64,000 bases of DNA, taken from positions 1 through 64,000 of the forward strand of contig ONIG01000005.1 in NCBI GenBank assembly GCA_900317855.1, read 5' to 3'. Source of the stretch: an uncultured Eubacteriales bacterium. GTDB lineage: Bacteria; Bacillota; Clostridia; Oscillospirales; Oscillospiraceae. The position numbers were made by a program, and so were the translations under genes. Below are positions 6,267 to 64,000 of this stretch, in pieces. Every line of letters starts with the position of its first letter. Within the stretch, counting starts at the first letter, position 1. A model generated the notes under the pieces. The model did no database searches, had not been told where the DNA came from, and saw only the letters and a program-made list of their open reading frames with translations.

Positions 6267-6289
6267 CCATAGAAAACGATAGAATATGA

Positions 6290-6385
6290 ATTTCGTTTCC
6301 TACGCCGGCATTATCCGGATCAGGTCTGTGGGTATCGAGCTTCGATTCACTCGTCTCAGCCGGGAATGACCCAGCCCCCCAAATG
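6290..6385 (-). promoter_or_regulatory. TPP riboswitch (THI element) controlling thiT
   Basis: On the minus strand the conserved parts appear in order: GGGG, CTGAGA (6354-6359), ACCTGATCCGGATAATGCC and GGCGTAGGAA. With the terminator at 6236-6266 this is a transcriptional OFF switch: thiamine pyrophosphate should reduce thiT expression. Confidence 0.95.
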
Positions 6386-6396
6386 GTACGTTGTTA

Positions 6397-6425
6397 TTAA
6401 TACACGATTGTCCGCAATTTGTCAA
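6397..6425 (-). promoter_or_regulatory. Promoter for the TPP riboswitch/thiT
   Basis: TTGACA (6420-6425), 17-bp spacer, TATTAA (6397-6402), directly after the stop of the WYL gene. Confidence 0.8.
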
Positions 6426-6426
6426 G

Positions 6427-7428: not shown

Positions 7429-7537
7429 AGTGATTCTCCGTTTCCCGTAAGGATCGGCATAATATTACCACAAATTAACGGCGCAGGCCAGTCAAAAGCC
7501 AGAAATATACTGATTTTCGGCAAAATTTGTTTGGGCG

Positions 7538-8122
7538 TCAGCCCAGCGGCTGCGACTCGGAGCTCAGCATTGCGTCGAGATTGTCCAGAATGAAGCGCTG
7601 CGCCTCCAGCCCGTACAGCGTAACGGTGTAGGTGCCGCGCTTTCCGCTGCGCTCCTCAGCCGACAGGCCAATGGTGCACCCCAGCGCCGTCGGGCGGCGC
7701 GTTGGCGTCCCCCCTTCACGTGCGGACACCTCCAGAAATCCGGCATGCAGGAGCCAGTTTGTGATCGTCGTCGTGCGCAGCTGCCGGTAGACGAACGTGT
7801 CGGCCATCTCATTGAGGATGCGGCAGATCTCGCTGATAAGCATCGGCCGCTCCGAAAACGGGAACTGCGCGCGCTGCTCGGCCGGCAGGGCAAACGGCAG
7901 GCCGAGCCCCTGTCCGCCGCGCTCGTGCAGCTCCTGCAGCAGACCGGACACAAAGAAAAAACAGCGCGACAGCTCCACCCGGTTGAGCACGCTGTCGTCC
8001 GGCAGCTCCGCGCCCGTCGCCGGGTCCAGCCCAAGGGCAAGTGCATCGAGGCAGTGCTTGGCGTTCAGAATACGTTCCTTTTGCGTCATATCATCGCCCG
8101 CTTCCGTGTTTTTCTTCATCAT
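7538..8122 (-). CDS. Conserved protein of unknown function
   Basis: 194 aa as read; a start at 8089 (MTQKERIL) giving 183 aa is also possible, and neither start has a strong ribosome site. The N-terminal half (ILNAKHCLDALALGLDP..., VELSRCFFFVSGLLQEL) is predicted helical. The C-terminal half has short strands and helices that could form a winged helix (TTTITNWLLHAGFLEV). No catalytic motif is visible. A 10-bp inverted repeat lies right before the gene. Function not recognised. Confidence 0.65.
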   Translation of the reverse strand: MMKKNTEAGDDMTQKERILNAKHCLDALALGLDPATGAELPDDSVLNRVELSRCFFFVSGLLQELHERGGQGLGLPFALPAEQRAQFPFSERPMLISEICRILNEMADTFVYRQLRTTTITNWLLHAGFLEVSAREGGTPTRRPTALGCTIGLSAEERSGKRGTYTVTLYGLEAQRFILDNLDAMLSSESQPLG

Positions 8123-8126
8123 AGCA

Positions 8127-8154
8127 GAATGAGAGTCCCATAAGCAGGACTCTC
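8127..8154. repeat. Perfect 10-bp inverted repeat upstream of the unknown gene
   Basis: ATGAGAGTCC, 8-nt loop, GGACTCTCAT. Neither strand has a T-run after it, so it is not a simple terminator. Its position just before the 7538-8122 gene fits an operator or a 5' UTR stem. Confidence 0.5.
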
Positions 8155-8275
8155 ATCAAAAATATCCAATTTTCTCGTACATATTTTTCGTTTCCGGCGC
8201 GGCGGCGCAGCCAACATTATGATGCCGACGGCGGAACGTGCCGTCAATGCGCAGGCCACTTCCCCACTGCGAAGT

Positions 8276-8312
8276 GAAAGCCCCCCGCCGGTGCGACCTG
8301 CGGAGGGCTTGC
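8276..8312 (-). terminator. Probable terminator of phnDCE
   Basis: On the minus strand AAGCCCTCCGC pairs imperfectly with the GGCGGGGGGCTT region, just past the phnE stop. The T-run is weak (TTTCACTT). Confidence 0.45.
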
Positions 8313-8314
8313 TT

Positions 8315-9874
8315 TCAAGTCTTATTTCCGGGTGCCGCCGCCGCGCGCCGCGTGCGCAGACGGGCCGAGCCCGCATCGATGAGCCAGACGAGCAGGACAA
8401 AGCCGAGGAAAATGGCGCTGACATCATTCCACGCGTACTGGTTCATGGCGAAAATGAGCGGCGCGCCGATGCCGCCGGCGCCGACAAGGCCGAGCACGGA
8501 CGCCTCGCGGATGTTGACATCGAACCGGTAGAGCACAGCCGAGGAAAACGCCGGGCCGAGCTGCGGCAGCACCGCATAGCGGATGCGCGGCAGCAGGGAG
8601 ACACCCATTGCGCGCAGCGCGTCGTAGGCGCGAAAATCCAGCGACTCGATCGCCTCGGTGAAGCGCTTGCTGAGCAGACCGATGCTGCACACCGCGAGCG
8701 TCAGCACGCCGGTGAACGCGCCGGGTCCGGAGACACGGATGAAGATGAGCCCATAGATCAAAAACGGCACGGAGCGGATCGCCACGATGAGCGCCCGGAA
8801 CAGCAGCGCGACCGGGCGCGGCAGCAGCTTCGGCGTGCTCAAAAACGCCAGCGGCAAAGCGAGCAGCGCGCCAAGGCCGGTGCCGGCCAGCGCGATGCCG
8901 ACCGTCTCGAGCAGCAGCCAGCCGAGCCCGTCCTTGCCGGTGCCGAAAAAGAAGCGCCAGTCCGGATGCAGCAGGCCCGTACCCATCGCCGCGAGTACGC
9001 TCCGGCTCGTGTGCGCCAGATCCGGCGCCTCGATGCCCGCCGTGCAGACGACCACGCACACCAGCACCGCCGCCCAGAGCGTGCGCTTTGCCCCGCGCGG
9101 GATGCTGCGCTCGCCGCGGATGATGCGCCCAAGCGCATGGCTGAGCCACTCGATGCAGCAGACGGTCACGAACAGGCACACGAGGATCGCACCGACGCGG
9201 CCGTACTCCCGCCACGAGATCTTCTCGTTGAGCAGCAGGCCGATGCCGCCGGCGCCGACATAGCCGAGGATGGCACTGTGGCGCACATTCGTCTCGAGCA
9301 GATAGAGCGCATTGGTCAGGTAGCCCGAGGCGATCTCCGGCACGACGGCGCACGCATAGGCCCGCGCCGGGGACGCGCCCATGGCGCACAGCGCGCGGTA
9401 GGGCGCGAGCGTCAGCACCTCGATGTCCTCATAGGTCAGGCGCGTCATGACGGCCAGTGTGAAGAGCGTGATGGCGACCGTGCCGGAGAACGTGCCAAGG
9501 CCGAACAGGAACGTCGCCAGCAGCGCAAGGATCAGCGCCGGGAACGAGCGCAGCACCTGCACCAGAAAGCGCAGCACCGCGCGCACCGGCGCGGGACACG
9601 GCAGATTGTGCGCGCACAGCGGCGCGAAGCCGAGCGCCAGCGCGACGCCCAGCGCCGTACCGGTGACAGACATACGCAGCGTCGCCAGCAGCGGCGCCAC
9701 GATCGCGGACAGATAGCTCCAGTCCGGCGGGAAGAGCTGCGCGGCAATGTCGCGCAGGTGCGCCCGCCGCGCCCAGAACACCGCGGGGTCGCACCCCGTA
9801 AGCCGGAACGCCAGCACAAACAGCGCGAGCACGCCCAGTGCCCGCGCCCAGCGTTTGCCGCGGGAGCGCGTCAT
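8315..9874 (-). CDS. phnE: PhnE-type ABC permease, two permease domains fused
   Basis: 519 aa, about twice the usual PhnE length (~270), because two complete permease domains are joined. Each carries the ABC-permease loop followed by the same glycine-rich motif: NVRHSAILGYVGAGGIG near residue 225 and NIREASVLGLVGAGGIG near 470. It should form the membrane channel with PhnC and PhnD. The start overlaps the phnC stop by 4 bp. The substrate may be phosphonate, phosphite or another small anion or cation. Confidence 0.9.
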   Translation of the reverse strand: MTRSRGKRWARALGVLALFVLAFRLTGCDPAVFWARRAHLRDIAAQLFPPDWSYLSAIVAPLLATLRMSVTGTALGVALALGFAPLCAHNLPCPAPVRAVLRFLVQVLRSFPALILALLATFLFGLGTFSGTVAITLFTLAVMTRLTYEDIEVLTLAPYRALCAMGASPARAYACAVVPEIASGYLTNALYLLETNVRHSAILGYVGAGGIGLLLNEKISWREYGRVGAILVCLFVTVCCIEWLSHALGRIIRGERSIPRGAKRTLWAAVLVCVVVCTAGIEAPDLAHTSRSVLAAMGTGLLHPDWRFFFGTGKDGLGWLLLETVGIALAGTGLGALLALPLAFLSTPKLLPRPVALLFRALIVAIRSVPFLIYGLIFIRVSGPGAFTGVLTLAVCSIGLLSKRFTEAIESLDFRAYDALRAMGVSLLPRIRYAVLPQLGPAFSSAVLYRFDVNIREASVLGLVGAGGIGAPLIFAMNQYAWNDVSAIFLGFVLLVWLIDAGSARLRTRRAAAAPGNKT

Positions 9875-15308: not shown

Positions 15309-15848
15309 TTAGCCTCTTGCAGCGGCTTCGCCGGCCTCGAGCGCCTTCATGTTGCCCTCGAGGAACTTGGCCTTCCTCTCGCCAAGCTCGATGCGGATCG
15401 CTTCGCCAAGGATCTCGTTGGAGACGACCGGAGCCTTCTCCATCAGAGCGCCGAGGATCGCAACGTTCGCGCCCTTCGGGTTGCCGACAGACTCGGCAAT
15501 GGCGTTGGCGTCGCAGTAGACGACCTGGATGTCATCACGCTCGGCCTTGCGGTCAATGATGGAGCTGTTGATGACGAGGACGCCGCCCGGCTTGACGTGG
15601 CTCTCGAACTTGTCCAGGGACGGACGGTTCATCGCCACAACGCAGTCAGCCATGTCGACCAGCGGGGATGCGACCGGATCGTCGGAGACGATGACGGAGC
15701 AGTTCGCCGTGCCGCCGCGCATCTCGGGGCCGTAAGAGGGCAGCCAGGAGACATGCTTGCCGTCGAGCATGCAGGCCATAGCCAGGAACTTACCGATCAG
15801 GAGCATGCCCTGACCGCCAAAGCCAGCAAAAATATATTCTTTCTTCAT
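15309..15848 (-). CDS. korC: 2-oxoacid:ferredoxin oxidoreductase, gamma subunit
   Basis: 179 aa with the gamma-subunit signature FAGFGGQGMLLIGK at the N-terminus and PSYGPEMRGGTANC. It contributes to CoA binding in the KorABCD enzyme, which oxidises a 2-oxoacid (2-oxoglutarate or similar) to acyl-CoA, CO2 and reduced ferredoxin. Last gene of the kor operon, 1 bp after korB. Confidence 0.93.
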   Translation of the reverse strand: MKKEYIFAGFGGQGMLLIGKFLAMACMLDGKHVSWLPSYGPEMRGGTANCSVIVSDDPVASPLVDMADCVVAMNRPSLDKFESHVKPGGVLVINSSIIDRKAERDDIQVVYCDANAIAESVGNPKGANVAILGALMEKAPVVSNEILGEAIRIELGERKAKFLEGNMKALEAGEAAARG

Positions 15849-15849
15849 A

Positions 15850-16596
<747 letters not shown>

Positions 16597-17676
16597 TTAC
16601 TTGCCCTCCTTCATGCTGATAATCTTCGCGACGATCTCTTCGGTGGTCGGCATCTGGCTGCCGAGGTGGCCGAAGAAGTCGATCGGCTTTGCGCCGTTGA
16701 TCGCGATCTTGACATCCTCAAGCATCTGGCCCTCGTTGAGCTCGACGTCGAGAACAGCCTTCACACCCGGAAGCTCGGCAGCCTTCTTGACTGCGTCGTA
16801 CGGGAACGGCCAGACGGTGATCGGGCGAACCAGACCAACGTTGATGCCCTGCTCCTTGAGCTCGGCAATGGCGGACTTGGCGATACGCGCAACCGTGCCG
16901 AAAGCGGTGATGACATACTCAGCACCCTCGAGGTTGTACTCTTCCCACTGCTGCTCGTTGGCAATGATCTCACGATAGCAGGCCTGCAGATCGTCGTTGT
17001 GGACGGACAGGGTCTCGGTATCGATGTAGATGGAGTTGATGACGCCGCGCTTGGCCGGATCGTCGCCCGGTTTCCAGCCGGTGCAGGCCCAGGGCTTCTT
17101 CTCGGGATCGATCTTGTAGTCGACCATCTCGGGCATCTCCACGGGCTCCATCATCTGCGCGATGATGCCGTCGGCGAGGAAGAGGACCGGTATGCGGTAC
17201 TTCTCAGCCTTGTCGAAGGCGTACATCATGATGTCGATCGCTTCCTGCACGGATGCCGGAGCGTAGGTCAGCAGGTGATAGTCACCGTTGCCGCCGCCCT
17301 TGACAGCCTGGAAGTAGTCGCCCTGAGAAGCCTGAATGTTGCCGAGGCCGGGGCCGCCGCGCATGACGTTCAGGATGACAGCCGGCAGCTGCGCGCCTGC
17401 GCAGTAGGAAATGCCTTCCTGCTTCAGGCTGACACCGGGGCTGGAGGAAGAGGTCAGCGCACGTGCACCGGCACCGGCTGCACCATAGATCATGTTGATT
17501 GCCGCAACTTCGCTCTCGGCCTGCAGGAAGCAGCCGCCGACTTCGGGCATACGTGCGGACATATATTCAGGAATCTCCGTCTGCGGAGTGATCGGATAGC
17601 CGAAGAAGTAACGCGCGCCTGCACGAATCGCAGCCTCAGCGATAGCTTCGCTACCCTTCATAAGCGTCAATGCCAT
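16597..17676 (-). CDS. korA: 2-oxoacid:ferredoxin oxidoreductase, alpha subunit
   Basis: 359 aa. The N-terminal GSEAIAEAAIRAGARYFFGYPITPQTE motif and SSSPGVSLKQEGISY are typical of KorA/VorB alpha subunits. The subunit set D-A-B-C with separate ferredoxin is the four-subunit arrangement. Substrate choice (2-oxoglutarate versus branched 2-oxoacid) cannot be settled from motifs. Confidence 0.94.
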   Translation of the reverse strand: MALTLMKGSEAIAEAAIRAGARYFFGYPITPQTEIPEYMSARMPEVGGCFLQAESEVAAINMIYGAAGAGARALTSSSSPGVSLKQEGISYCAGAQLPAVILNVMRGGPGLGNIQASQGDYFQAVKGGGNGDYHLLTYAPASVQEAIDIMMYAFDKAEKYRIPVLFLADGIIAQMMEPVEMPEMVDYKIDPEKKPWACTGWKPGDDPAKRGVINSIYIDTETLSVHNDDLQACYREIIANEQQWEEYNLEGAEYVITAFGTVARIAKSAIAELKEQGINVGLVRPITVWPFPYDAVKKAAELPGVKAVLDVELNEGQMLEDVKIAINGAKPIDFFGHLGSQMPTTEEIVAKIISMKEGK

Positions 17677-17691
17677 TTTCGATGTACCTCC

Positions 17692-17901
17692 TTAATCTCT
17701 CACAATGCTGATTACCACGTCCGGGCAAGTACGCGCGCAGGAAGCGCAGCCGATGCAGGCCTCCGGATTCGCGACGACGGACGGATGATAACCCTTTGCG
17801 TTGAGTTTGTCCTTCGCCAGCGCCAGGACGCCCTTCGGGCAAGCTCTGACACAGAGACCGCAACCCTTGCAAAGATTCTCGTTGATGGTCACCTTTACCA
17901 T
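17692..17901 (-). CDS. korD: 2x[4Fe-4S] ferredoxin-like delta subunit
   Basis: 69 aa with two CxxCxxCxxxCP motifs (CKGCGLCVRACP and CIGCASCARTCP), enough for two [4Fe-4S] clusters. It passes electrons from KorB to free ferredoxin. 15 bp before korA. Confidence 0.95.
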   Translation of the reverse strand: MVKVTINENLCKGCGLCVRACPKGVLALAKDKLNAKGYHPSVVANPEACIGCASCARTCPDVVISIVRD

Positions 17902-24039: not shown

Positions 24040-24290
24040 AAGATTGCCGGGGCGCAAAAAAATCGCCCCGAAACGAACTGTTTCAGGGCGATCGAAACCG
24101 CGGTACCACCTGAATTCCACGCAGACGCGTGACACTCTTGTCTCTGTAACGGGAGAACCCGGCCGCCCTACTCCGTTCAGGCCGGCTGCTCCGGGGCGAC
24201 CTTCATCTCCGGCATCCGAAAGGCTTGCACCAACCGCCTTCTCTCTGACGTCCGCCGGGAGACTACTCCTCCCCTTCTTCGCAAATGGAT
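24040..24290 (-). promoter_or_regulatory. T-box leader of valS
   Basis: The antiterminator core GGTGGTACCGCGG lies at 24097-24109 on the minus strand. A terminator stem at 24062-24092 is followed by T7. Upstream is a Stem I with AGAGAG and GGTTGGTGCAAGCC. A GUC (Val) triplet lies on the 3' side of Stem I near the expected specifier position; I could not fold it exactly. Uncharged tRNA-Val should favour readthrough. Confidence 0.93.
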
Positions 24291-32453: not shown

Positions 32454-32490
32454 AAAAAAGAAAATGACCCCTGCGAAAGCAGAAGTCATC
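32454..32490 (-). terminator. Fluoride-riboswitch terminator
   Basis: ATGACTTCTGC pairs with GCAGGGGTCAT across TTTC, followed by TTTCTTTTTT on the minus strand. Its left arm is shared with the 3' part of the aptamer. Confidence 0.88.
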
Positions 32491-32537
32491 AGCCATTGCG
32501 GCGTTTTCAGGTCACCCTGCGGGAGCACTTCATTCCC
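32480..32537 (-). promoter_or_regulatory. Fluoride (crcB) riboswitch
   Basis: Minus strand: GGGAATGAAGT opening, TCCC closure, then GGCTGATGACTTCTGC, which carries the conserved GCTGATG and the pseudoknot partner of ATGAAGT. The layout matches the known fluoride aptamer, and the gene start after it is a crcB start. Fluoride should allow readthrough. Confidence 0.9.
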
Positions 32538-32543
32538 AAGGCT

Positions 32544-32572
32544 ATGATAGCAGGATGCGCCGCATTTTGCAA
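32544..32572 (-). promoter_or_regulatory. Promoter of the fluoride riboswitch transcript
   Basis: TTGCAA (32567-32572), 17-bp spacer, TATCAT (32544-32549) with an extended -10 TGC. The start site is predicted at the first base of the aptamer. Confidence 0.75.
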
Positions 32573-35159: not shown

Positions 35160-35470
35160 CCTGCAAAATGATCTGATGGTTTGGCAGGAAAAAAGAAAAC
35201 CCTCCGTCTTTCCTGCCCTCTGGCAGAAGAGACGAAAGGCCGAAAACCCTCCGCGGTACCACTCTTCTTCGCCCCCGAATCAGGGGACGCGCTCTCCCGG
35301 GATACCATCATATCCCTGCACAATAACGGGCGCACCCGTCTGCACCTACTCGTCGTTCAGCGCAGCCGCTGTTCAGCCAGTTCGGCAGGTCTGTACGCTT
35401 CGTGCCTCACACCACCCGGCACTTCTCTGAAAGGACGTTCCTGCTTACTACTCTGTGTCTTCGCGTTTGA
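35160..35470 (-). promoter_or_regulatory. T-box leader controlling the YkvI-like transporter
   Basis: AGTGGTACCGCGG (antiterminator bulge) lies at 35251-35263 on minus. A terminator (35205-35217 with 35222-35234) is followed by a TTTTCTTTTTT-type run. Stem I has GTGCC/GGCAC capped by GGGTGGTGTGA, and a specifier-side loop reads GAAGCGTACAGA. UAC (Tyr) followed by A is the most likely specifier; other frames in the loop are possible. Confidence 0.88.
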
Positions 35471-55237: not shown

Positions 55238-56434
55238 TCATCCCTCAACAAAGCGCTTGCCCAGATACATGGGTCTGGCAGAATAATCAAAGTTCCCGCA
55301 TACAAGCTCAATTTTCACACAAGGATAAAGCTTTTCTATTCTCTCCCTAAGCTCTGCCTCATTTATTTTTGCCACACAGCACAGCTCTATCCTAAGCTTG
55401 TCCTTAAATTCGGCCCGGAAGTCAACAACTCCGTCAAATGAAAAAACTATGCTGTCAAGCTGCTCCATGGAGATTTTACCCTCTTTTCTTATCACCCGGT
55501 CAATACGCCTTGTAAGGCCGCCGCAGGGGCAGGCTGGCATTATGCGCGTATAATCCCCGGTGCGGTAGCGGATAAGGGGCATGGCTTCAAGACCAATGGT
55601 AGTAATTACCAGTTCGCCAAACTCTCCTTCGGGCAAAACATTGCCTTTCCCGTCGATTATCTCGGGAATGATATGGTTTTCCCGAAGATGCATCCCATCA
55701 AAGGCCGGGCAGGTAACAGCGCCGCCCAGACCACATTCCCGGCTGCCATAATGGGGGTAGAGCCTTGAGCCCAAGGCCTTTTCCAGTGCCTGCATGACCC
55801 CCTCCGGGCAGGCATCGCCTGATACCAATGCCCGCCTTATGGGAAAACTGTTGCCGTACACACGGCACAGGCCCAGCAGCGTTACCGGAAAGCCTATATA
55901 GGTTTCGGGCTGAGTTTCTTTTACCGTTTGGCAAAGCTCCGCCCAGCTTTGACCAAATCCGGCTTTTACGGGAATTGCCCCAAGCCGCTCCACCGCTTTT
56001 GCAATCAAATCTCCAAGCCCGAAGGGGCCGGAGAAGGGGAAAGCAATAAGACATTTTTCCCCGGCGGAGAGCATTTCGGAAATGCCGGCGGCGAAAAAGC
56101 CCACGGTATGTTCGGTATCTCTATCGGTGTAAAATACTCTTTTGGCAGGCCCGGTAGTACCGGAGGTGGCACCGGAGATGACCCGGCTCACCTCAGACTG
56201 AGAGGTGAGCAAAAAGCTCCCCGGGTTTTCCGCCAGCATTTTTGCTGTGGTAAAGGGCAGATTTTCAAGTTCCTTAAGGCTCTTTACAGATTCGGGATAA
56301 GCTTTCCCCATATCGTGAAGCCGCTTTAAAGTTTCATTGAGCTTTTTAAGCTGCAAAGCATCCAAGGCCTCCCTGTCAAGCACGGGGAGGCCTTCGACTT
56401 CCTGTATCCAGTTTTCAAGCTTTGTTTTTCTCAT
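55238..56434 (-). CDS. AMP-forming CoA-ligase-like protein (DVU_1553-type)
   Basis: 398 aa of the phenylacetate-CoA ligase/coenzyme F390 synthetase-like superfamily. The P-loop ISGATSGTTGPAKRVFYTD, YGSRECGLGG and RYRTGDYTRI (adenylate-binding Asp) are visible. The C-terminal domain is present (RRIDRVIRKEGKISMEQ). It should activate a carboxylate as an adenylate and maybe load CoA or another acceptor; substrate unknown. ATGA overlap with the radical SAM gene. It is the last gene of the cluster. Confidence 0.82.
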   Translation of the reverse strand: MRKTKLENWIQEVEGLPVLDREALDALQLKKLNETLKRLHDMGKAYPESVKSLKELENLPFTTAKMLAENPGSFLLTSQSEVSRVISGATSGTTGPAKRVFYTDRDTEHTVGFFAAGISEMLSAGEKCLIAFPFSGPFGLGDLIAKAVERLGAIPVKAGFGQSWAELCQTVKETQPETYIGFPVTLLGLCRVYGNSFPIRRALVSGDACPEGVMQALEKALGSRLYPHYGSRECGLGGAVTCPAFDGMHLRENHIIPEIIDGKGNVLPEGEFGELVITTIGLEAMPLIRYRTGDYTRIMPACPCGGLTRRIDRVIRKEGKISMEQLDSIVFSFDGVVDFRAEFKDKLRIELCCVAKINEAELRERIEKLYPCVKIELVCGNFDYSARPMYLGKRFVEG

Positions 56435-57753
56435 TTTCTGTAAAGAGAGTTTCCGTCAACATCGGTCAGATTATATGCGCAGAAGGGCACCATGCCCTTC
56501 TCCGAATCCGCCTCGCAGATGTAGCAGCGGCGAAGTCGGTCAAGGTCAAGATTATAGGCGTCCTGAAAGACCATGCCGGAGACAGTGAAGGTGCTTTCAA
56601 CAATCTGTTGGAGAAATTCATCAAGAGACGAAGTGGCCTCATCACCGTCACAGCAGGAGACTTTCCCGCTCCACTGCTGAGAGACAAAATCCCTGGCCTC
56701 GCTGCTTTTTACACAGCAGCAGCCGGTATTCTTCCTCTTGGGCAGGGGCTTTAGGCTGCCATCGGGGAGCTTTCGGTAACTGGCGTGGAAGGAGCAATAA
56801 GGGCTTTCCGCACCGCCGCCGCCGAAATGGGAATACTGCATAAGCCCATCGGTCTGCTCCTCGATGCGGCGAAGCACTGCGGGAATGGTCAGACGGATTT
56901 CCGGCGCTTCAAGAGAGCAGCGGCCGAAATAGGATATGGGCTGAATATGCACGCCCCGCACATGGGGGGCATTATCCAGGGCGAAGCGGATTATATCTCC
57001 AAGCTCACCGTCGTTTACGCCGGGGGCCACCGTAGGCACCAGCACAACGGGCAGGCCGGCTGCGCGGCAGTTTTCTATGGCGCAGAGCTTAGTTTCCGCG
57101 AGAGACGCGCCTCTCATAGTTATGTAAACCTCATCTTTGAGACTGTCAAACTGCAGAAACACTGTACTTACCCCGGCCTTGGCCAAATGCCGGGCATAGC
57201 CTGCCTCATTTGCAAGGCGCAGGCCGTTGGTATTGAGCTGGAAGAAGCTGAAGCCCTTTTCCTTGCCGAGGGCAATTATTTTGTCCAAATCGTCCCGGAC
57301 CGTAGGCTCGCCGCCGGAGAGCTGAATGTTGAAGGGGCCGCCGTGGGCCATCAGCATATCGTACTGCTTTGCGATTTCTTCAAGGCTCAGGTCTTCCTCC
57401 GGACTTTCCTCCCCAGCTGAGGCAAAGCACACCGGGCAGCGGAGATTGCAGCGCTTTGTCAGCTCCAGAAGGACGCAGCAGCCGTCCCGCTCATGGTTCT
57501 GGCAGAGGCCGCAGTCATAGGGGCAGCCCTCTTCCACCGGCTTTGCCCGCACCGGCACCACCTTGCCGTCGGCATCGTTTTCTGCCCAGGCCTTATAGCT
57601 CTCCAAATCGCCCTCCCAGATAAGAGTGCGGAAGCTGCCGTGTTCCCAGCAGCGCTTTTCCATATAGATATTGCCGTCTTCACCAAGCACCTTGCTTGCG
57701 GGAATCCTTGCAAGGCAGACGGGGCATACGCTCAATGCTTTACCGATAATCAT
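56431..57753 (-). CDS. Radical SAM protein (TrsS-type)
   Basis: 440 aa. An N-terminal Cys-rich zone (CPVCLARIP, CPYDCGLCQNH) precedes the radical SAM cluster motif in TKRCNLRCPVCFASAG and the SAM site LSGGEPTVRDD. The C-terminal half has many cysteines (NTGCCCVKSS, KVSCCDGDE, CYICEADS, FCAYN), suggesting auxiliary Fe-S clusters. I recall a family called radical SAM (seleno)protein TrsS, found beside the same partners; some members carry Sec where this one has Cys. TAATG overlap with the upstream gene. Confidence 0.82.
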   Translation of the reverse strand: MIIGKALSVCPVCLARIPASKVLGEDGNIYMEKRCWEHGSFRTLIWEGDLESYKAWAENDADGKVVPVRAKPVEEGCPYDCGLCQNHERDGCCVLLELTKRCNLRCPVCFASAGEESPEEDLSLEEIAKQYDMLMAHGGPFNIQLSGGEPTVRDDLDKIIALGKEKGFSFFQLNTNGLRLANEAGYARHLAKAGVSTVFLQFDSLKDEVYITMRGASLAETKLCAIENCRAAGLPVVLVPTVAPGVNDGELGDIIRFALDNAPHVRGVHIQPISYFGRCSLEAPEIRLTIPAVLRRIEEQTDGLMQYSHFGGGGAESPYCSFHASYRKLPDGSLKPLPKRKNTGCCCVKSSEARDFVSQQWSGKVSCCDGDEATSSLDEFLQQIVESTFTVSGMVFQDAYNLDLDRLRRCYICEADSEKGMVPFCAYNLTDVDGNSLYRK

Positions 57754-58178
57754 TATAAAAGACCTTTTCTTTCCAGTATCTCAAGGCATTTTTCGTAAAC
57801 TGCCGCAATAATCTGCGGGCAGTACTGCACCTTCTTGGCCGGGCTTGTGCCCACAATATCCCGGCAGTCAATGCTGCCGTATTCAAGCGTCATCTCTTCC
57901 TCAAACCAGCGGGCAAACTCACCGATGGCGCTTTTATGATGCGGGCTGTCATAGTCCGTGTCACCGGACTTGCCGGTGAAATTGGAGATCATGCAGCAGC
58001 CTGCCGCCATGCAGCCGCAGACATCTCCGCTGCTGCCTATACCGCCGTTTAAGCCCTGCATCATCCGCACAAGCTGGGGGTTTTCCTCCCCGGTGGTATC
58101 CAGCAGCAATATGGCCAGTATCTGGCCGCAGGCATAGCCGTAGCGGCTCAGCTCCATTATTCTCTCTTCAAGGTCCAT
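57753..58178 (-). CDS. C_GCAxxG_C_C family redox protein (DVU_1555-type)
   Basis: 141 aa. Spaced cysteines YACGQ, GDVCGCMAAGCCMIS, IDCRD and QYCPQ fit the C_GCAxxG_C_C family of putative Fe-S or thiol redox proteins. The expected GCA is GCM here. Helical throughout. It lies between the methyltransferase (4-bp gap) and radical SAM genes. Confidence 0.82.
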   Translation of the reverse strand: MDLEERIMELSRYGYACGQILAILLLDTTGEENPQLVRMMQGLNGGIGSSGDVCGCMAAGCCMISNFTGKSGDTDYDSPHHKSAIGEFARWFEEEMTLEYGSIDCRDIVGTSPAKKVQYCPQIIAAVYEKCLEILERKGLL

Positions 58179-58182
58179 TCAA

Positions 58183-58701
58183 TCACAGCCTTTCGCATAT
58201 AAAAAGTACGTAGCTTACTTTTTTCCCCGTGGGAAGACAATTGCTCTCGTCCCGCCAGAGTGCTTCCAGATAATACTCCTTCCACTCATCCGACATATCC
58301 TCCATATGCCGCACCGCAAAGCCCGCCGCGCGTACCTCGCTCAGCAGCTTTACAACATCTCTCGTCACATCGGAGAACACCAGCTTGCCGCCCTTTTTCA
58401 GCATACGGCCCGCCTCCTTCAAAGCCCCCGGCACATCGCCGCTGACAAAGAAGCTGCACTGGCTGATAATAGCGTCAAAGCTTTCCCCGGCATAGGGGGC
58501 TTCAAGATAATCTCCCTTTATAACTTTCTCACCGGAGGGCTCAAGGTCGATGCCCTCTGCCTCATAGCCCAGAGAGCGCAGCAACCTGACCGTTTCGCCG
58601 GAGCCGGCACCCATGTCAAGCCATCTGGCAGGGGGCATCACAAAGGATAGCTCTATAAGATAGCGGCTGTGTTCCTCGCCGCCGGGATGTCTTGTCATCA
58701 C
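58183..58701 (-). CDS. SAM-dependent methyltransferase (TrsM/DVU_1556-type)
   Basis: 172 aa Rossmann-fold class I methyltransferase. ARWLDMGAGSGETVRLL is motif I, GIDLEPSG motif II, FDAIISQCSFFVS motif IV and GGKLVFSDVTRD motif VI. It is short, lacking any extra substrate domain. Substrate unknown; in this neighbourhood it may modify a cofactor or an intermediate. ATGA overlap with the small redox-protein gene. Confidence 0.85.
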   Translation of the reverse strand: MMTRHPGGEEHSRYLIELSFVMPPARWLDMGAGSGETVRLLRSLGYEAEGIDLEPSGEKVIKGDYLEAPYAGESFDAIISQCSFFVSGDVPGALKEAGRMLKKGGKLVFSDVTRDVVKLLSEVRAAGFAVRHMEDMSDEWKEYYLEALWRDESNCLPTGKKVSYVLFICERL

Positions 58702-58916
58702 TTGTCCTCCAATGCCTTTTCAACGGAGAGAACCTTACCCAAGGCCAGCTCCTCCGGCACATACACAAAGCCGCAGCCGGGGCACACCGGCAGCTCAACG
58801 GGAAAACCGTTATCCAGATACATGAACTTTGCCTTGCCCTTTTGCAGCTTCATTTTACATTTGAGGCACATGAGCTTGCCTTCCGGGTCAATAGTGTAAT
58901 AATTCTTGTCTGCCAT
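58698..58916 (-). CDS. Small Cys4 protein (DVU_1557-type redox protein)
   Basis: 72 aa. CLKCKMKL and CPGCGFVYVP give a zinc- or rubredoxin-like Cys4 site. The N-terminus (MADKNYYTIDPEGKL) is conserved in what I recall as the DVU_1557 family. Probably an electron or metal carrier of the cluster. Confidence 0.8.
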   Translation of the reverse strand: MADKNYYTIDPEGKLMCLKCKMKLQKGKAKFMYLDNGFPVELPVCPGCGFVYVPEELALGKVLSVEKALEDK

Positions 58917-58930
58917 TTTACTGCCTCCTG

Positions 58931-61198
58931 TCAGCGGTTGAGAATGTTCATGCGGTGGCTGTAGGCGCTGTATACGCGGTAGCCGGTTTCGGTCTCCCTG
59001 TATTTGACCCAGAAGGTCACATTGCCAAGCCTTGCCCTTGTGACATAAAGGCCGCTTTCTTCATCCAAAATGGCTTCTCCCGTCTCCCGGAGGCTCTGTA
59101 TAACGCGGGTAACATCGCTTTTGAGTATCATTCTGTCGTCCATCATCGCTTCGGCGGCAGGGGTATATCCTATTTCAAAACCAAGGTCCATTTCTTCAAT
59201 ATCCTCTTTCCAGACTTCTTTCAGCAGCTCATTTTTAAGGCTGAGTCGGTTGTAGCGCTTGGCACTTATATCCGGGCAGTTATCTGCCGAGCTGCCATAG
59301 ACCAGCTCCAGCAGGTGCATGGACTCTCTGCCCTCTCTGGCAAAGCGGTCACGGCAGGCCATGCAGTAGCTAAGATAGGGAAGCTCTGAGCGCTCAAGGC
59401 ACTTTTGGGTCATTTCCTTTGCCACTTGGCGGTTAGTGTACTGGGTAAGACCGCCGTAGCCGCAGCAGGGGGATTTATCCCCACTGTATTCGGTCTCCTG
59501 AATTCGGCAGCCGAGAGTCTCTGCGATGCGGCGGATGCTCTGCTGAGTATCGGCATCGCCTCTTGCGCCGCAGGAGTCATGCAGGGCCATGGGCTTATTT
59601 GCCCTTTTTGCCTTTTCCGGCAGACCGATATTTTCCAGAACAGTCCAGATACCGGTCACATTCCCGCAGTCATGGGACTTAAGCTCCTTCATGCAGCTGG
59701 GACAGCCAGCAATTATGGTGGGAGATCCAAGCTCAATGAGCTTATCATTGAGAAATTTCACCGTCTCATCATACATCTCATAGCGCCCTGCCCAGTTGCA
59801 AATTGCACCGCAGCAGCCCAACATCAGGGCAACGCCGCCTTCAAGTCTCTCACACAGGTCAAGGTAGGCCGCCCTCACCGTGGCAGGGGCAATGGCCGTG
59901 GCCTGACAGCCGGGGAAAAACACATATTTGCACTTATCGTGGCCCGGCTGCTTTCGGCAAAGGAAGGCCTCACCATTGGAAAAGACCATGTCCATCAGCG
60001 CAAACTCATGGGGTGCAAGGGGCATTTTGCCGGTAAAGACCATGTTCTGCCTTGCCATGTGGCAGACCTCTGCCATGTCGTAGCCGTTGGGACAGAGCAC
60101 GGAGCACTGACCGCAGAGGGAGCAGGCATTGATGGGCTTATTCATCATGTGGTCGCCCATAATGATAGATACATTGTTGTATATCTCCCTCGTCAGCATC
60201 CGGGGGAACTTTTTATAGTGCTGCAAATAGGCGCAGCCCTTGACGCACTCATCGCAGCGGCACTGGATGCAGCGCTTTGCCTCGGATATGGCGCTTTCTC
60301 TGTCGTTAATCTCGATGCGGCTTGAACTTTCAACTCCCTCAAGGGAGGTATAAAGCCTTGTCTCAACGGACCCTTCCTCGCCTCTGGTGTTGGCGGGATC
60401 AAGGTTTTGCACCATTCGGTCAACGGAGATGGCGGCTTTTTTTGCGCCGAAGGCAGCATCGAGCACGCCCTCAGTTTTGCCGGTCACCAGTCTGTGCTCC
60501 CGACACACCATCACAGCCTCATCGACCGTGAGACCGGGATGGATTTCCTCCGCCGCAGCATAGGCGGCACATACTATGTCATATCTATCAGCGTTTGCGG
60601 CAAAACACGCTGCCGCATCCGCGTTAAATTCAAATTTAATGTCTGCCCTTGCAATATCACCCAGAGCGGCATTCAGCGAGGCCTCAGAAAGCCAGGGCGC
60701 GCAGGCAGAAAGAAGCTCTGCTTCATCAGTCTGAGAGCAGTAAAGGATGACGGGGTACATTTTTCTCGCAAGCTCACCAGCGAGAAAAACAGAGAAAAGA
60801 TCCGCCCCGAACACGGCACAGCGCTTTGTCTTTTTTCTGAGAAGTCCCCGCTTTTTCGGCGGCTCACCGTAAGCGGCGGCAGCGGCCTCCAGCTCACGGA
60901 CGGAAATGCCCTCTCCCAGCTCACACAGCTTGCACTTTCCTTCGCAGGGTGCTTCACAGCCGGCAGACAGGATATGAGGGAAGGGTGTTATTTTTTCATA
61001 TAGTGCCAGAGCCTTGTTGAAGTCACCTGCGGCTATGGCATCCACCATGGCCTTGGTATCCAGCTTCAGGGGGCAAGCGGCATTACAGTAGGCAGGCTGC
61101 TCATGGACGCAAAGGCTTTCCCTTGCTTCAAGCTCTTCCTTTGTGAATAGCCGCTTCTGGCGGTATACATGAGTTGAGGCTCTTTCTTCGATTATCAT
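58931..61198 (-). CDS. Large Fe-S/CCG-domain redox protein with degenerate flavin domain
   Basis: 755 aa. The N-terminal GltD-like region has Fe-S cysteines (CNAACPLKLDTK, CEAPCEGKCKLCELG). A Rossmann-like stretch follows (KRCAVFGADLFSVFLAGELA) without a proper GxGxxG. Next come ferredoxin motifs (CIQCRCDECVKGC, CSLCGQCSVLCPNGYD), two CCG domains (LGCCGAICNWAG; SPCCGYGGLTQ) and a C-terminal domain. It resembles 'pyridine nucleotide-disulfide oxidoreductase/dicluster-binding' proteins and heterodisulfide-reductase subunits. Likely electron conduit for the aldehyde oxidoreductase. Confidence 0.8.
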   Translation of the reverse strand: MIIEERASTHVYRQKRLFTKEELEARESLCVHEQPAYCNAACPLKLDTKAMVDAIAAGDFNKALALYEKITPFPHILSAGCEAPCEGKCKLCELGEGISVRELEAAAAAYGEPPKKRGLLRKKTKRCAVFGADLFSVFLAGELARKMYPVILYCSQTDEAELLSACAPWLSEASLNAALGDIARADIKFEFNADAAACFAANADRYDIVCAAYAAAEEIHPGLTVDEAVMVCREHRLVTGKTEGVLDAAFGAKKAAISVDRMVQNLDPANTRGEEGSVETRLYTSLEGVESSSRIEINDRESAISEAKRCIQCRCDECVKGCAYLQHYKKFPRMLTREIYNNVSIIMGDHMMNKPINACSLCGQCSVLCPNGYDMAEVCHMARQNMVFTGKMPLAPHEFALMDMVFSNGEAFLCRKQPGHDKCKYVFFPGCQATAIAPATVRAAYLDLCERLEGGVALMLGCCGAICNWAGRYEMYDETVKFLNDKLIELGSPTIIAGCPSCMKELKSHDCGNVTGIWTVLENIGLPEKAKRANKPMALHDSCGARGDADTQQSIRRIAETLGCRIQETEYSGDKSPCCGYGGLTQYTNRQVAKEMTQKCLERSELPYLSYCMACRDRFAREGRESMHLLELVYGSSADNCPDISAKRYNRLSLKNELLKEVWKEDIEEMDLGFEIGYTPAAEAMMDDRMILKSDVTRVIQSLRETGEAILDEESGLYVTRARLGNVTFWVKYRETETGYRVYSAYSHRMNILNR

Positions 61199-61224
61199 GT
61201 GTTTTCCCCCTGTAGATTTTAAGG

Positions 61225-61253
61225 GTAGAGGCGGGTATTTTACCCGCCTCTAC
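61225..61253. repeat. 13-bp perfect hairpin at the start site of the cluster promoter
   Basis: GTAGAGGCGGGTA/TACCCGCCTCTAC with a 3-nt loop. There is no strong T-run on either side. It lies between the aldehyde oxidoreductase and the redox gene. Confidence 0.75.
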
Positions 61254-61282
61254 ATTATAACATACTATTTAACGCTTGTGAA
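61254..61282 (-). promoter_or_regulatory. Internal promoter of the redox/radical SAM cluster
   Basis: TTCACA (61277-61282), 17-bp spacer, TATAAT (61254-61259). The -35 begins right after the stop of the aldehyde oxidoreductase gene. Confidence 0.75.
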
Positions 61283-64000
61283 TTACTCCAGCTCTTTGAG
61301 AGCAGCCAGAACTACCTCGGGCAGAGCGGGAACGCGGGTGATACGAGCGCCGGTGGCGTTGTAGATAGCGTTCAGGATTGCGGGGTGAGGAGCATCCAGA
61401 GGAGCCTCGCCGCAGCCGGCTGCGCCGTAGGGGCCATTGGGACGGTAGGTTTCAACATAGTGCAGCTCGATGTCATCGGGAACATCGTTGGGATAAGGAA
61501 TACCGCACTTGAGAAGGCTGGTGTGCTTGCTGAGATCCTCGAAGTCCTCAGTGAGAGCAAGACCGATGCCCTGTGCAAGACCACCGTAGAAGTTGCCGTC
61601 AACAAGGAGCTTGTTGAGGATGGTACCAACATCTGCAACGCAGGTGAACTTCTCAACCTTTACCTTACCGGTCTGAGTGTCAACACGGACCTCAGGCAGG
61701 AACAGGGTGTACATGTAGGTTGCGAAGGGCTCGCCCTGAGAGGTGGCCTGATCCACGGGATGGGTTGCACAGTAGTCGGTGACCCAGTTGCCCAGAACCT
61801 TGGTCTCGATGCCTTCGGCTACCATTTCGTCATAGGTGCGGAGAGTGCCATCCTCGCGCTTCATGGCGGCGATCAGGTTCTCTGCTGCCAGACGGCAGGC
61901 GTTACCGGACATGACCTGAGAGCGGGAGCCGCCGGCAGGACCGGAGTTGGGAGCGAGCTTGGTGTCGTTCATGACAAGTTTTATCTGCTCGGGCTTGATG
62001 CCGATCTGACGGAGAGTCTCATGTGCGGACTGGAGAACGCCCATGTCAGCGCCCTGACCATGGTCTTCCCAGCAGGCATACATGGTTACGGTGCCGTCGG
62101 GATTGAGCTCAGCATATGCCTGAGAGGAGTCAACACCGTCAAGGCCGCAGCCGTAAACACCGGAGGATACACCGATACCGTACTTGTAGCGGCCGTCGGA
62201 AGCTGCGTTCTTCTCTGCAACTCTCTTCTTGGCTGCCTCGTACAGAGGACGAGCCTTCTTGTACATTTCTTCAAGGCAGTAAACATCAGGTGCGTAACCG
62301 GTGGGAATGGTGGAGCCGGCAGATTCCTTGTAGCAGTTGAGCTCGCGGATATCGAAGGGATCCATGCCCATCTTGGCAGCCAGAACGTCAATGGCAATCT
62401 CAGAGCCCATAAAGGACTGGGGAGAGCCGTATGCACGGAAGGCGGAGCCCCATGCGTGGTTGGTGAAGACGGTCTGGGACTTGTTGCGGATGGAGGGGAT
62501 GTCGTAGCCTGCGCCGACAAACTGGCTCAGACGGTGAGTCAGCAGGTCGCCGAACTCAGAGTAAGGACCGTGGTCAACATAGTTATCGCCCCAGAGACCA
62601 AGGAGCTTGCCGTTTTCGTCGGCAGCGAGCTTGATGTGCATGAAGGCGGGAGAACGCTTACCGGTGTAAGTAATGTTCTGGAACTGGTTGAAGACCAGGG
62701 ATACGGGCTTGCCGGTGATCTTTGCGGCAGCGCCGAGGATGGCTTCGTTGGTGGGAGAGAACTTGTAGCCGAAGGTGCCGCCGGCATGGTTCTGGACGAT
62801 GCGGAGCTTGTCCATGGGAACGCCGATACCGTCAGCGATCATGGGCATATGCAGGTGGATACCGATGGACTTGGAGTGTACAGTGACCATTCCGTCTTCA
62901 TCGATGTAAGCATAGCCGCAGTCGGGCTCGAGGTGGAGGTGGGGCTGACGGGAGCAGTAGGACTCGATTTCTACTACATTGGGAGCAGCGTCAAAGTCAA
63001 TTTCGGGTCCCTTGATGCAGTTGGTCTCGTAGTAAGCATTGGGAACACCGGGATGGATTTCGATTGCGTCTTCTGCGATTGCATCCATTGCGTTCATGTA
63101 TGCGGGCAGCTCTTCGATTTCGACAACGACCTTGTCGGCAGCGGCGCGGGCGTGAGCCTCGGTGTCGGCAGCGACGATGGCAATAGCGTCACCAAACTGG
63201 AAAATCTTCTCGTCACAGAGGACGGGACGGTCCCAACCGTCGCACTTGTTGTTCAGAGGCAGCATGACAAGGCCGTTGATGCGGTTCTTGCCGCCGGCTG
63301 CAACGATGTCCTTGGCGGTGATGATCTGGTAAACACCGGGCATCTTTTCTGCTTCGCATGTGCAGACCTTCTTGATGTTTGCATGGCTGACCTTTGCCTG
63401 AACCAGAGCAAGTCTCAGGGTGCCTTCGGGCATCTTCAGAGCATCGTCTGCGCCGAAGTCCCAGGTGCCGGTGACCTTCTGTGCTGCGGAAGGACGGACA
63501 TACTTGGTGCCGATGATGGAGTCACCGGTGGGCTTGAACATCAGGTCTTCCTTGCTGATTTCGCCGCGGACTACGCGGGCTGCGTCCATAACAGCGTCAA
63601 CCAGGGGCTTGTAGCCGGTGCAACGACAGAGGTTGCGGTTCTTGTTGAACCAATCGCGTACTTCTTCGCGGGTGGGAGAGGGGTTGTTGTCAAGCAAAAC
63701 CTTTGCGCTCATGATAAAGCCGGGGGAGCAGAAGCCGCACTGTGCACAGCCGTGGGCCATCCATGCAACCTGCAGGGGATGCATATCGGAGATGGTGCCG
63801 ATACCCTCGATGGTGGTGATTTCTGCGCCGTCTTTAATCTTGCTCAGCTTCATGATGCAGGAGCGGGCGACCTTGCCGTCCACTATTACGTTACATGCGC
63901 CGCAATGACCTTCGCCGCAGCCGATTTTACAACCGGTCAGCAGCAGACGTTCACGCAGGAAGCTGGCGAGAGTTTCGTTCTCATCCACCAGAACTGTGCG
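61283..64000 (-). CDS. Molybdenum aldehyde oxidoreductase, MOP-like (5' end outside window)
   Basis: About 905 residues in view, homologous along its length to Desulfovibrio gigas aldehyde oxidoreductase (907 aa), so only ~15-20 N-terminal residues are missing. Two [2Fe-2S] sites are visible (CGEGHCGAC; CAQCGFCSPGF with CRCTGY), then the molybdopterin domains (GGTFGYKFSPTNEAIL, WGSAFRAYGSPQ, AWEDHGQGADMG-like, SGPAGGSRSQV) and the catalytic Glu in GCGEAPLDAPHPAIL. No FAD domain, so electrons leave through the Fe-S centres to another carrier. It oxidises aldehydes to carboxylates; the natural substrate is unknown. Confidence 0.93.
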   Translation of the reverse strand, partial: RTVLVDENETLASFLRERLLLTGCKIGCGEGHCGACNVIVDGKVARSCIMKLSKIKDGAEITTIEGIGTISDMHPLQVAWMAHGCAQCGFCSPGFIMSAKVLLDNNPSPTREEVRDWFNKNRNLCRCTGYKPLVDAVMDAARVVRGEISKEDLMFKPTGDSIIGTKYVRPSAAQKVTGTWDFGADDALKMPEGTLRLALVQAKVSHANIKKVCTCEAEKMPGVYQIITAKDIVAAGGKNRINGLVMLPLNNKCDGWDRPVLCDEKIFQFGDAIAIVAADTEAHARAAADKVVVEIEELPAYMNAMDAIAEDAIEIHPGVPNAYYETNCIKGPEIDFDAAPNVVEIESYCSRQPHLHLEPDCGYAYIDEDGMVTVHSKSIGIHLHMPMIADGIGVPMDKLRIVQNHAGGTFGYKFSPTNEAILGAAAKITGKPVSLVFNQFQNITYTGKRSPAFMHIKLAADENGKLLGLWGDNYVDHGPYSEFGDLLTHRLSQFVGAGYDIPSIRNKSQTVFTNHAWGSAFRAYGSPQSFMGSEIAIDVLAAKMGMDPFDIRELNCYKESAGSTIPTGYAPDVYCLEEMYKKARPLYEAAKKRVAEKNAASDGRYKYGIGVSSGVYGCGLDGVDSSQAYAELNPDGTVTMYACWEDHGQGADMGVLQSAHETLRQIGIKPEQIKLVMNDTKLAPNSGPAGGSRSQVMSGNACRLAAENLIAAMKREDGTLRTYDEMVAEGIETKVLGNWVTDYCATHPVDQATSQGEPFATYMYTLFLPEVRVDTQTGKVKVEKFTCVADVGTILNKLLVDGNFYGGLAQGIGLALTEDFEDLSKHTSLLKCGIPYPNDVPDDIELHYVETYRPNGPYGAAGCGEAPLDAPHPAILNAIYNATGARITRVPALPEVVLAALKELE

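Follow-up and report, generated by a model that had tools for sequence, protein, structure and literature searches.

A conserved operon joining a molybdenum-dependent aldehyde oxidoreductase to TrsS, a Tes-like radical SAM protein, in an uncultured Oscillospiraceae bacterium

The window analysed here, the first 64,000 nucleotides of contig ONIG01000005.1 from an uncultured Eubacteriales bacterium of the Oscillospiraceae, closes on an operon of seven genes in which a molybdenum (Mo)-dependent aldehyde oxidoreductase (MOP) is encoded together with TrsS, a radical SAM protein resembling tetraether lipid synthase (Tes), the enzyme that couples the lipid chains of archaeal membranes. The contig has 75,222 bases and belongs to a genome (G000) of 1.96 Mb in 49 contigs, 97.4% complete. 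According to open reading frame positions and an NCBIfam scan, all seven genes lie nearly gapless on the minus strand and are transcribed in the order MOP, DVU_1558-type iron-sulfur (Fe-S) protein, DVU_1557 Cys4 protein, DVU_1556-like methyltransferase, DVU_1555 C_GCAxxG protein, TrsS and DVU_1553 ligase, an order abbreviated below as P-C-R-M-G-S-L. The gene for MOP (DVU_1559 family; 61283..64000; NF045668, 1527.4 bits, cut-off 1100) is cut by the window edge and continues on the contig to an ATG start at 64102, corresponding to 939 residues. It is separated by 84 nt from that of the DVU_1558-family Fe-S protein (58931..61198; NF045663, 804.5 bits, cut-off 530), whose C-terminal domain of about 90 residues (58934..59200) was delimited by alignment with stand-alone genes from three other loci (L126, L133 and L134). 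After a further 14 nt comes the DVU_1557-family Cys4 protein (DUF7479, 72 residues; 58698..58916; NF045645, 91.9 bits, cut-off 60; PF24292; alignment), with a 4-nt overlap to the class I methyltransferase (58183..58701; Methyltransf_11), whose 172 residues compare with 213 positions in the family model NF045667 and whose score of 107.5 bits lies under the cut-off of 155. Four nt then lead to the DVU_1555-family C_GCAxxG_C_C protein (141 residues; 57753..58178; NF045669, 145.9 bits, cut-off 103; PF09719), which shares 1 nt with TrsS (440 residues; 56431..57753; NF045646, 578.4 bits, cut-off 490), and TrsS in turn overlaps by 4 nt the AMP-forming ligase of the DVU_1553 family and PaaK clade (398 residues; 55238..56434; NF045666, 316.7 bits, cut-off 300). 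A preceding sequence-only reading had described seven co-directional genes with overlapping or near-zero gaps and had likened them to the DVU_1553-1559 ('Trs') neighbourhood; the layout was as described, and the likeness was confirmed by the profile search, with the methyltransferase under its cut-off. The operon is therefore a further member of families already named by NCBI. Its TrsS shares 86% identity with the protein of an Oscillospiraceae metagenome-assembled genome from roe deer colon, which makes a related gut species of the Clostridia (Bacillota) the probable host.

The surroundings of TrsS were compared in the best 80 of 575 confirmed relatives, a locus sample that leans to close kin and, apart from four loci without assignment, is spread over eight named phyla. 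Flanking sequence was sufficient (9 kb or more on the left of TrsS and 3 kb or more on the right) in 48 of these loci, where MOP was found in 39, DVU_1558 (its stand-alone C-terminal domain included), DVU_1557, the methyltransferase and the ligase in 42 each, C_GCAxxG in 40 and a nucleoside triphosphate (NTP) transferase in 33. The exact order P-C-R-M-G-S-L was kept in 22/48, with the NTP transferase coming next in 13 of them. Recurrence of the gene set across the 48 flanked loci indicates that the operon is not a product of chance.

The association with MOP was also evident from genome surveys. Among 398 genomes of the window's phylum, with both proteins counted over their NCBIfam cut-offs, TrsS was present in 24, MOP in 26 and both in 22. 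The corresponding figures for 247 genomes of the Desulfovibrionales-containing class of G425, at E <= 1e-60 for TrsS and E <= 1e-250 for MOP, were 175, 172 and 167. Over the two surveys combined, 189/645 genomes contained both proteins, with Fisher p values (5e-30 for the phylum and 7e-45 for the class) that are descriptive because the genomes are related. The dedicated tie to MOP-type enzymes proposed beforehand is supported by these numbers (both proteins in 22/24 and 167/175 TrsS genomes), which reject, for TrsS as the gene surveyed, the opposite outcome of the small genes occurring mostly without MOP. The TrsS-only genomes of the phylum were G356, with a MOP-free variant of the operon, and G076, whose TrsS contig also bears a MOP fragment of 952.7 bits. 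Its MOP-only genomes comprised G315 and G072, where TrsS scored just under the cut-off (455.6 and 469.5 bits), G083, with just a paralogue linked to a dimethyl sulfoxide (DMSO) reductase (L152) and a MOP gene running into the contig end, and G207, which gave no TrsS match. Eight genomes of the class were TrsS-only: G636 has a MOP tail at a contig start, G570 carries a tandem variant, G554, G562, G575 and G619 gave weak matches (1e-100 to 1e-103), and the others were G519 and G663; the class count for both proteins includes G451, G504 and G517 on weak TrsS-like matches (1e-64 to 1e-86). Three of its five MOP-only genomes were inspected, namely G584, where MOP stands alone on a 10.5 kb contig, close to its start, G616, where MOP is accompanied by part of DVU_1558, at which the contig breaks off, and G446, considered further below.

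Nine loci presented TrsS without another Trs gene in the stretch covered, four of them being short on one side. A search for MOP addressed the genomes behind 30 of the 80 loci, 29 of them available, and located it elsewhere in the genome for every unlinked TrsS but that of L072 (eight of nine genomes, one of the eight scoring 1099.7 bits, marginally under the cut-off of 1100). The separate MOP operon of L079, L084 and L138 reads P-C-R-M-G-L, missing just TrsS, and the L124 genome has a full operon with its own TrsS besides the unlinked one. The genome of L090 has three MOPs over the cut-off; the surroundings of one were inspected and show an operon copy with the ligase straight after the methyltransferase and no TrsS, the contig ending inside the ligase. 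As for the remainder, the MOP contig of L123 ends after DVU_1558, and MOP stands alone in the stretch covered in L073 and L074. Retention of the MOP operon in company with an unlinked TrsS supports a functional tie between them.

MOP is 56% identical to the Desulfovibrio gigas aldehyde oxidoreductase (AOR) over 917 alignment columns, and this alignment showed conservation of all eight [2Fe-2S] cysteines and of the active-site residues, the equivalent of Glu869 included. With 1527.4 bits, the cluster cysteines and the catalytic Glu869 equivalent, MOP passes the family test, and a Pfam scan detected no flavin domain in it. The portions of the literature at hand describe D. gigas AOR as a natively purified enzyme that has served as a model Mo enzyme for decades, that contains the molybdopterin cytosine dinucleotide (MCD) cofactor, present also in a later structure at 1.28 Å, and that has no flavin domain. 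By analogy, the window MOP is expected to bear ordinary MCD and to oxidise aldehydes. Of 348 genomes, G461 alone gave a match at E <= 1e-118 to a fragment of the D. gigas AOR. The match is 100% identical over 206 residues, and on that identity the genome is taken to be D. gigas. Its 3.69 Mb contig carries a full P-C-R-M-G-S-L operon, followed by XdhC-like and histidine phosphatase genes, both named by reading. The presence of the Trs operon in the D. gigas genome, together with the MCD reported in the available accounts of its AOR, means that an enzyme from a Trs-bearing cell has the ordinary pterin.

TrsS found its closest solved structure by sequence in Tes/GDGT-MAS (7tol), with 417.6 bits over the whole protein and 66 for the next match. 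The same holds for the fold, since the TrsS model (predicted local distance difference test, pLDDT, 82) matched 7tol/7tom with template modelling (TM) scores of 0.81-0.82, the next being MoaA at 0.45. The Tes ligands, as far as they are given in the part of the publication available, are C9/C12/C33/H36, C73/C77/C80/His, a CX3CX2C motif and the labile Met439. Matched to them by count, the aligned TrsS residues are C10/C13/C35/H38, C77/C81/C84/H87, C102/C106/C109 and M394, which corresponds to retention of the ligands of the rubredoxin site, the N cluster and the radical SAM cluster and of the labile Met of the C cluster; M394 is conserved in at least 90% of 21 aligned proteins. Tyr459 of Tes is not kept, the aligned position varying in TrsS. 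Moreover, TrsS scored 344.1 bits with the Tes family model NF045702, under the cut-off of 450, and the matched region covers 431 profile positions against 473 residues in Tes, about 42 fewer. On its sequence, TrsS would resemble Tes in cofactors and is not classed as Tes. The Tes authors judge pterin binding unlikely in Tes and point out that homologues occur in bacteria from which the Tes product is not known. The possibility of the window TrsS being a selenoprotein was dropped, its frame being open without an in-frame TGA and the selenocysteine form being optional in the family; a TGA in L022, considered as a selenocysteine codon, seems to be simply the gene's own stop read through. The nearest solved structures to the ligase are phenylacetate-CoA ligases (E 1.4e-29), with matches ending at residue 316 of 398, and a ligase lies no more than 700 bp downstream of TrsS in 60/74 loci.

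The DVU_1558-type protein combines an Nfn/GltD-like N-terminal part, a dicluster, two CCG motifs and the C-terminal domain. Profile searches of the PDB related its N-terminal half to NfnA, dihydropyrimidine dehydrogenase and the glutamate synthase small subunit and its CCG part to EtfD (9ojn), and Pfam recognised Fer4_20, Fer4_17 and CCG, with no Pyr_redox at E <= 0.001. Its model (pLDDT 90.9) found fold matches in StnABC/NfnABC and Mycobacterium smegmatis EtfD, with whole-chain TM scores of at most 0.35. Two complete CX(28-42)CCX(30-40)CXXC motifs were present in 53/53 proteins of this type, a set made up of the window protein, the 50 of 60 locus matches longer than 650 residues (L126 and L134 included; the 10 of up to 650 residues being left out), G207 and L147. 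The CCG motif occurs twice in HdrB as well. A GxGxxG-type dinucleotide motif is kept in 28/51 aligned proteins; the gut relatives without this glycine motif, besides the window, are L066, L068-L071, L076, L080, L081, L085 and L087. The earlier inference that the redox proteins imply electron coupling is plausible in view of this Nfn/GltD-like and twin-CCG composite, and DVU_1558 stays beside MOP in G207, the genome without a TrsS match. The C-terminal domain gave no significant PDB match, nor its stand-alone form (L126:8735-9001) a Pfam match. Against PDB profiles, the Cys4 protein had no significant match (one long match, to an alkylsuccinate synthase subunit, at E 0.26), and the search with the C_GCAxxG protein gave nothing informative.

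Trs operons also exist without MOP. In three loci devoid of MOP (L126, L133 and L134), the C-terminal domain of DVU_1558 is a separate gene just ahead of the Cys4 gene, and methyltransferase, TrsS and ligase are encoded as well. A full DVU_1558-like protein is additionally found downstream in L126 and L134, and L133 gave a weak C_GCAxxG match. A MOP-profile search of their genomes returned nothing at E <= 1e-60 for L126, less than 430 bits for L133 and at best 798.8 bits for L134, and all three gave MoaC. One genome from each surveyed group, G356 and G570, presents the tandem TrsS-TrsS2-ligase-DUF5714 (L144:1717-6253 and L193:6640-11256), and genome profile searches detected neither MOP, MoaC nor MoeA in them, nor MoaA over the cut-off. 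A Pyr_redox protein lies near the Trs genes of L144, and a gene for a 2-hydroxyglutaryl-CoA dehydratase D-component lies upstream of the tandem pair in L193. The MOP-free Trs genes of L134 are flanked (6282-8585 and 15333-17838) by a TfrA/fumarate-reductase-like flavoprotein, under its family cut-off, a B12-binding protein and a RACo-type activator. In the TrsS tree, the seven rows from MOP-free operons group together (SH-aLRT 93), and their sister clade of 75 rows (99) comprises every one of the 51 rows whose locus includes MOP. Outside both clades stand four TrsS-like proteins (L147:10144-11463, L150:5746-7098, L151:9788-11110 and L152:838-2124) beside DMSO-reductase-family Mo enzymes, assigned by family scan for L147 and by reading for the others and for the Mo cofactor genes of L147. 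That Trs needs MOP or Mo as a general rule is doubted, given the MOP-free operons and the missing Mo genes of G356 and G570. These operons suggest which genes form the Trs core.

The sequence beyond position 64,000 bears on cofactor supply. A DVU_1551-type NTP transferase fused to a ModE-like helix-turn-helix, which the sequence-only reading had taken to be absent at this end, is encoded 1.6 kb past the window on the plus strand (contig 65601-66542), divergent from the operon; both parts are seen, and the score of 192.9 bits does not reach the cut-off of 315. It is followed by an NTPase-like gene and then by genes for a permease and an ATPase (both named by reading) and for a binding protein, a trio that probably forms a Mo or tungsten (W) uptake operon. 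A TylF-like gene, also named by reading, lies between MOP and the NTP transferase. Clustering of the neighbours in the best 80 loci, with one example of each family scanned, gave XdhC-like proteins in 26, MoeA-like in 19, histidine phosphatases in 17 and, in 10, a member of aminotransferase class V that we interpret as a cysteine desulfurase. Despite its MOP and NTP transferase, the window genome gave no MoaC or MoeA match and no MoaA over the cut-off; this may be an assembly gap, because a relative (G411) carries MoaA and two MoeA on a single 9.3 kb contig.

Taken together, these observations can be accommodated by a model of two units. The first would be MOP with ordinary MCD and DVU_1558, the latter most likely accepting MOP electrons in replacement of the flavin adenine dinucleotide domain that MOP lacks, with cofactor supply encoded next to MOP by the NTP transferase and probable uptake genes here and by XdhC-type and MoeA-like genes in related loci. 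The second would be the Trs core of TrsS, PaaK-like ligase, methyltransferase and small Cys protein, in which an aliphatic or acyl substrate most likely undergoes activation at an unreactive C-H bond by TrsS and at its carboxylate by the adjacent ligase. The product most likely serves the electron path of the first unit, and other oxidoreductases in MOP-free operons, and would not be a change to the Mo cofactor. A small acyl-derived molecule acting as partner or carrier for the electrons of MOP is the reading of this product that we tentatively favour, at somewhat less than an even chance.

Several points weigh against this carrier. The dinucleotide motif of DVU_1558 is missing in 23 proteins, namely those of the window, the ten gut relatives and 12 others, most of which keep GxG and miss the third glycine, and its degeneration in the window and the gut relatives makes coupling to NAD(P)H or flavin doubtful here. 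A review assigns to the MOP of D. gigas a flavodoxin as its putative partner, and no mutant data on Trs genes were found in the literature search. The direction of the electrons, the substrate and product of TrsS and the role of that product are inferred. Genomes of a single phylum or class are not phylogenetically independent observations of co-occurrence, and G446 has MOP without any Trs gene in 20 kb and without TrsS at E <= 1e-60, which indicates that MOP need not depend on Trs. Finally, the tree was built by a fast search with no bootstrap and takes its root from long-branched outgroup rows, and the MOP-free genomes are drafts (G356 being 87% complete), in which absences are weak evidence because G413 and G414, with MOP, also gave no MoeA.

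An unlikely alternative, the strongest of the rivals, reverses the relation, with MOP oxidising an aldehyde or C-H intermediate of the Trs pathway and the ligase activating the resulting acid. An aldehyde oxidase and an acid ligase form a natural sequence, the acid-activating ligase adjoins TrsS, and other oxidoreductases occur near MOP-free Trs genes (the sub-cut-off TfrA-like protein of L134 and the Pyr_redox protein of L144). However, MOP stands alone in G446, and proteomics of D. vulgaris detects it readily (a table entry of 66, read as spectral counts), which, with the native purification of the D. gigas enzyme, suggests a catabolic role for MOP.

A little less probable is the maturation idea first advanced for the locus, in which the task of TrsS, the methyltransferase and the ligase is the maturation or modification of MOP, either of its Mo cofactor or of the protein itself. 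Part of it stands, namely the tie to MOP and the flanking genes: TrsS co-occurs with MOP, XdhC-type AOR maturation factors and MoeA-like genes adjoin related operons and an NTP transferase this one, four TrsS-like proteins accompany DMSO-reductase-family Mo enzymes, and MoaA is the next closest fold family to TrsS. The part in which the radical SAM protein, methyltransferase and ligase act on the Mo cofactor is not supported. TrsS is homologous to Tes, TrsS-ligase operons exist in MOP-free genomes (two of them without MoaC, MoeA and over-cut-off MoaA), and MOP is found without TrsS in G207 and G446. A pterin modification of MOP is further weakened because D. gigas has the operon and yet, in the accounts available, MCD at 1.28 Å, and because Tes is considered unlikely to bind pterin in the published text at hand.

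More improbable still, TrsS could make a lipid with cross-linked or modified membrane chains, by analogy coupling two saturated lipid chains as in Tes. Besides the Tes homology and ligands, this would agree with a suggestion by Zeng et al., in the part consulted, that bacterial Tes homologues make membrane-spanning lipids, and with outgroup rows that include Tes-like proteins near Lgt-like and fatty-acid-synthesis-like genes (by reading). Against it stand the score (344 versus a Tes cut-off of 450), the shorter match (431 profile positions versus 473 Tes residues), the partners of TrsS (PaaK-like ligase, methyltransferase and MOP) and the loss of Tyr459, although Tyr459 variants of Tes are active according to the available text. 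In L149 (8007-10813), a tandem of two divergent genes for Tes-like radical SAM proteins lies within what seems, by reading, a fatty-acid synthesis cluster. The remaining probability falls to something other than these four readings.

As a long shot, Trs might make a thiol coenzyme: TrsS would put sulfur on an unactivated acyl chain via a Tes-type carbon-sulfur step, the ligase would add a head group, the methyltransferase would tune it, DVU_1558 with its two HdrB-type CCG motifs would reduce its disulfide, and MOP, a TfrA-like or a DMSO-reductase-family enzyme would feed or draw electrons. A disulfide-reductase role for DVU_1558 is confined to this proposal, because the solved match of its CCG half, EtfD, is an electron-transfer protein.

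Returning to the small electron carrier as the favoured product, such a compound would be a new cofactor of anaerobes, gut bacteria included, and D. vulgaris or D. gigas would allow a direct genetic test. The operon links two problems, the chemistry of the Desulfovibrio AOR neighbours and the role of the bacterial Tes homologues, of which the Tes-type TrsS probably does not act on tetraethers. To our knowledge, no chemistry has been described for the genome neighbours of the aldehyde oxidoreductase in Desulfovibrio. The families, metal ligands, operon conservation, co-occurrence, MOP-free Trs operons and the operon of the D. gigas genome were computed here. TrsS figures in a published list, and a review cites Haft and Tolstoy 2025 (mSystems) for it, in the excerpts available. 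The literature drawn on, likewise available in part, was PMC13188914, PMC10920352, PMC11784015, PMC8941075, PMC10223205 and PMC9433317; no discussion of the Tes-ligand match, the MOP-free sister operons or the D. gigas operon was found in the portions searched, and the main Trs paper may cover some of them.

Other features of the region include portal, ClpP-like protease and terminase-like genes, named by reading, at contig 71600-75218 (L003:11600-15218), which suggest a prophage near the operon. An Rfam scan gave no match in the operon stretch or in L003; elsewhere in the window it located T-box leaders at 24081-24288 and 35225-35470, a thiamine pyrophosphate (TPP) riboswitch at 6281-6391 and a fluoride riboswitch at 32473-32546.

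Among known systems, the operon is most directly comparable to the Trs/DVU_1551-1559 families (NF045645, NF045646 and NF045663-NF045669) in gene content, order and family scores, from which it differs in a methyltransferase and an NTP transferase under their model cut-offs, a TrsS without TGA and a DVU_1558 without the dinucleotide glycine motif. MOP is like D. gigas AOR (PDB 1sij, 1vlb) in its 56% identity, cluster ligands and active-site residues, but comes from a gut genome where MoaA, MoaC and MoeA were not found in the searches made. The likeness of TrsS to Tes/GDGT-MAS (MJ0619, PDB 7tol, 7tom) lies in the fold, the ligands of four metal sites and the labile Met, as far as the available account of Tes allows, whereas its score below the family cut-off, its approximately 42 fewer residues, the lack of a conserved Tyr459 and its other gene partners set it apart. 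The ligase shares the AMP-binding core of the phenylacetate-CoA ligase PaaK but belongs to its own family, NF045666, and its matches stop at residue 316 of 398. DVU_1558 recalls NfnABC/StnABC and the glutamate synthase small subunit in its N-terminal half and EtfD in its CCG part; unlike these, it is fused to a C-terminal domain of its own, has a degenerate flavin part in the window clade and reaches whole-chain TM scores of at most 0.35. Lastly, should Trs make a thiol coenzyme, it would be a bacterial counterpart of the coenzyme B/heterodisulfide system.

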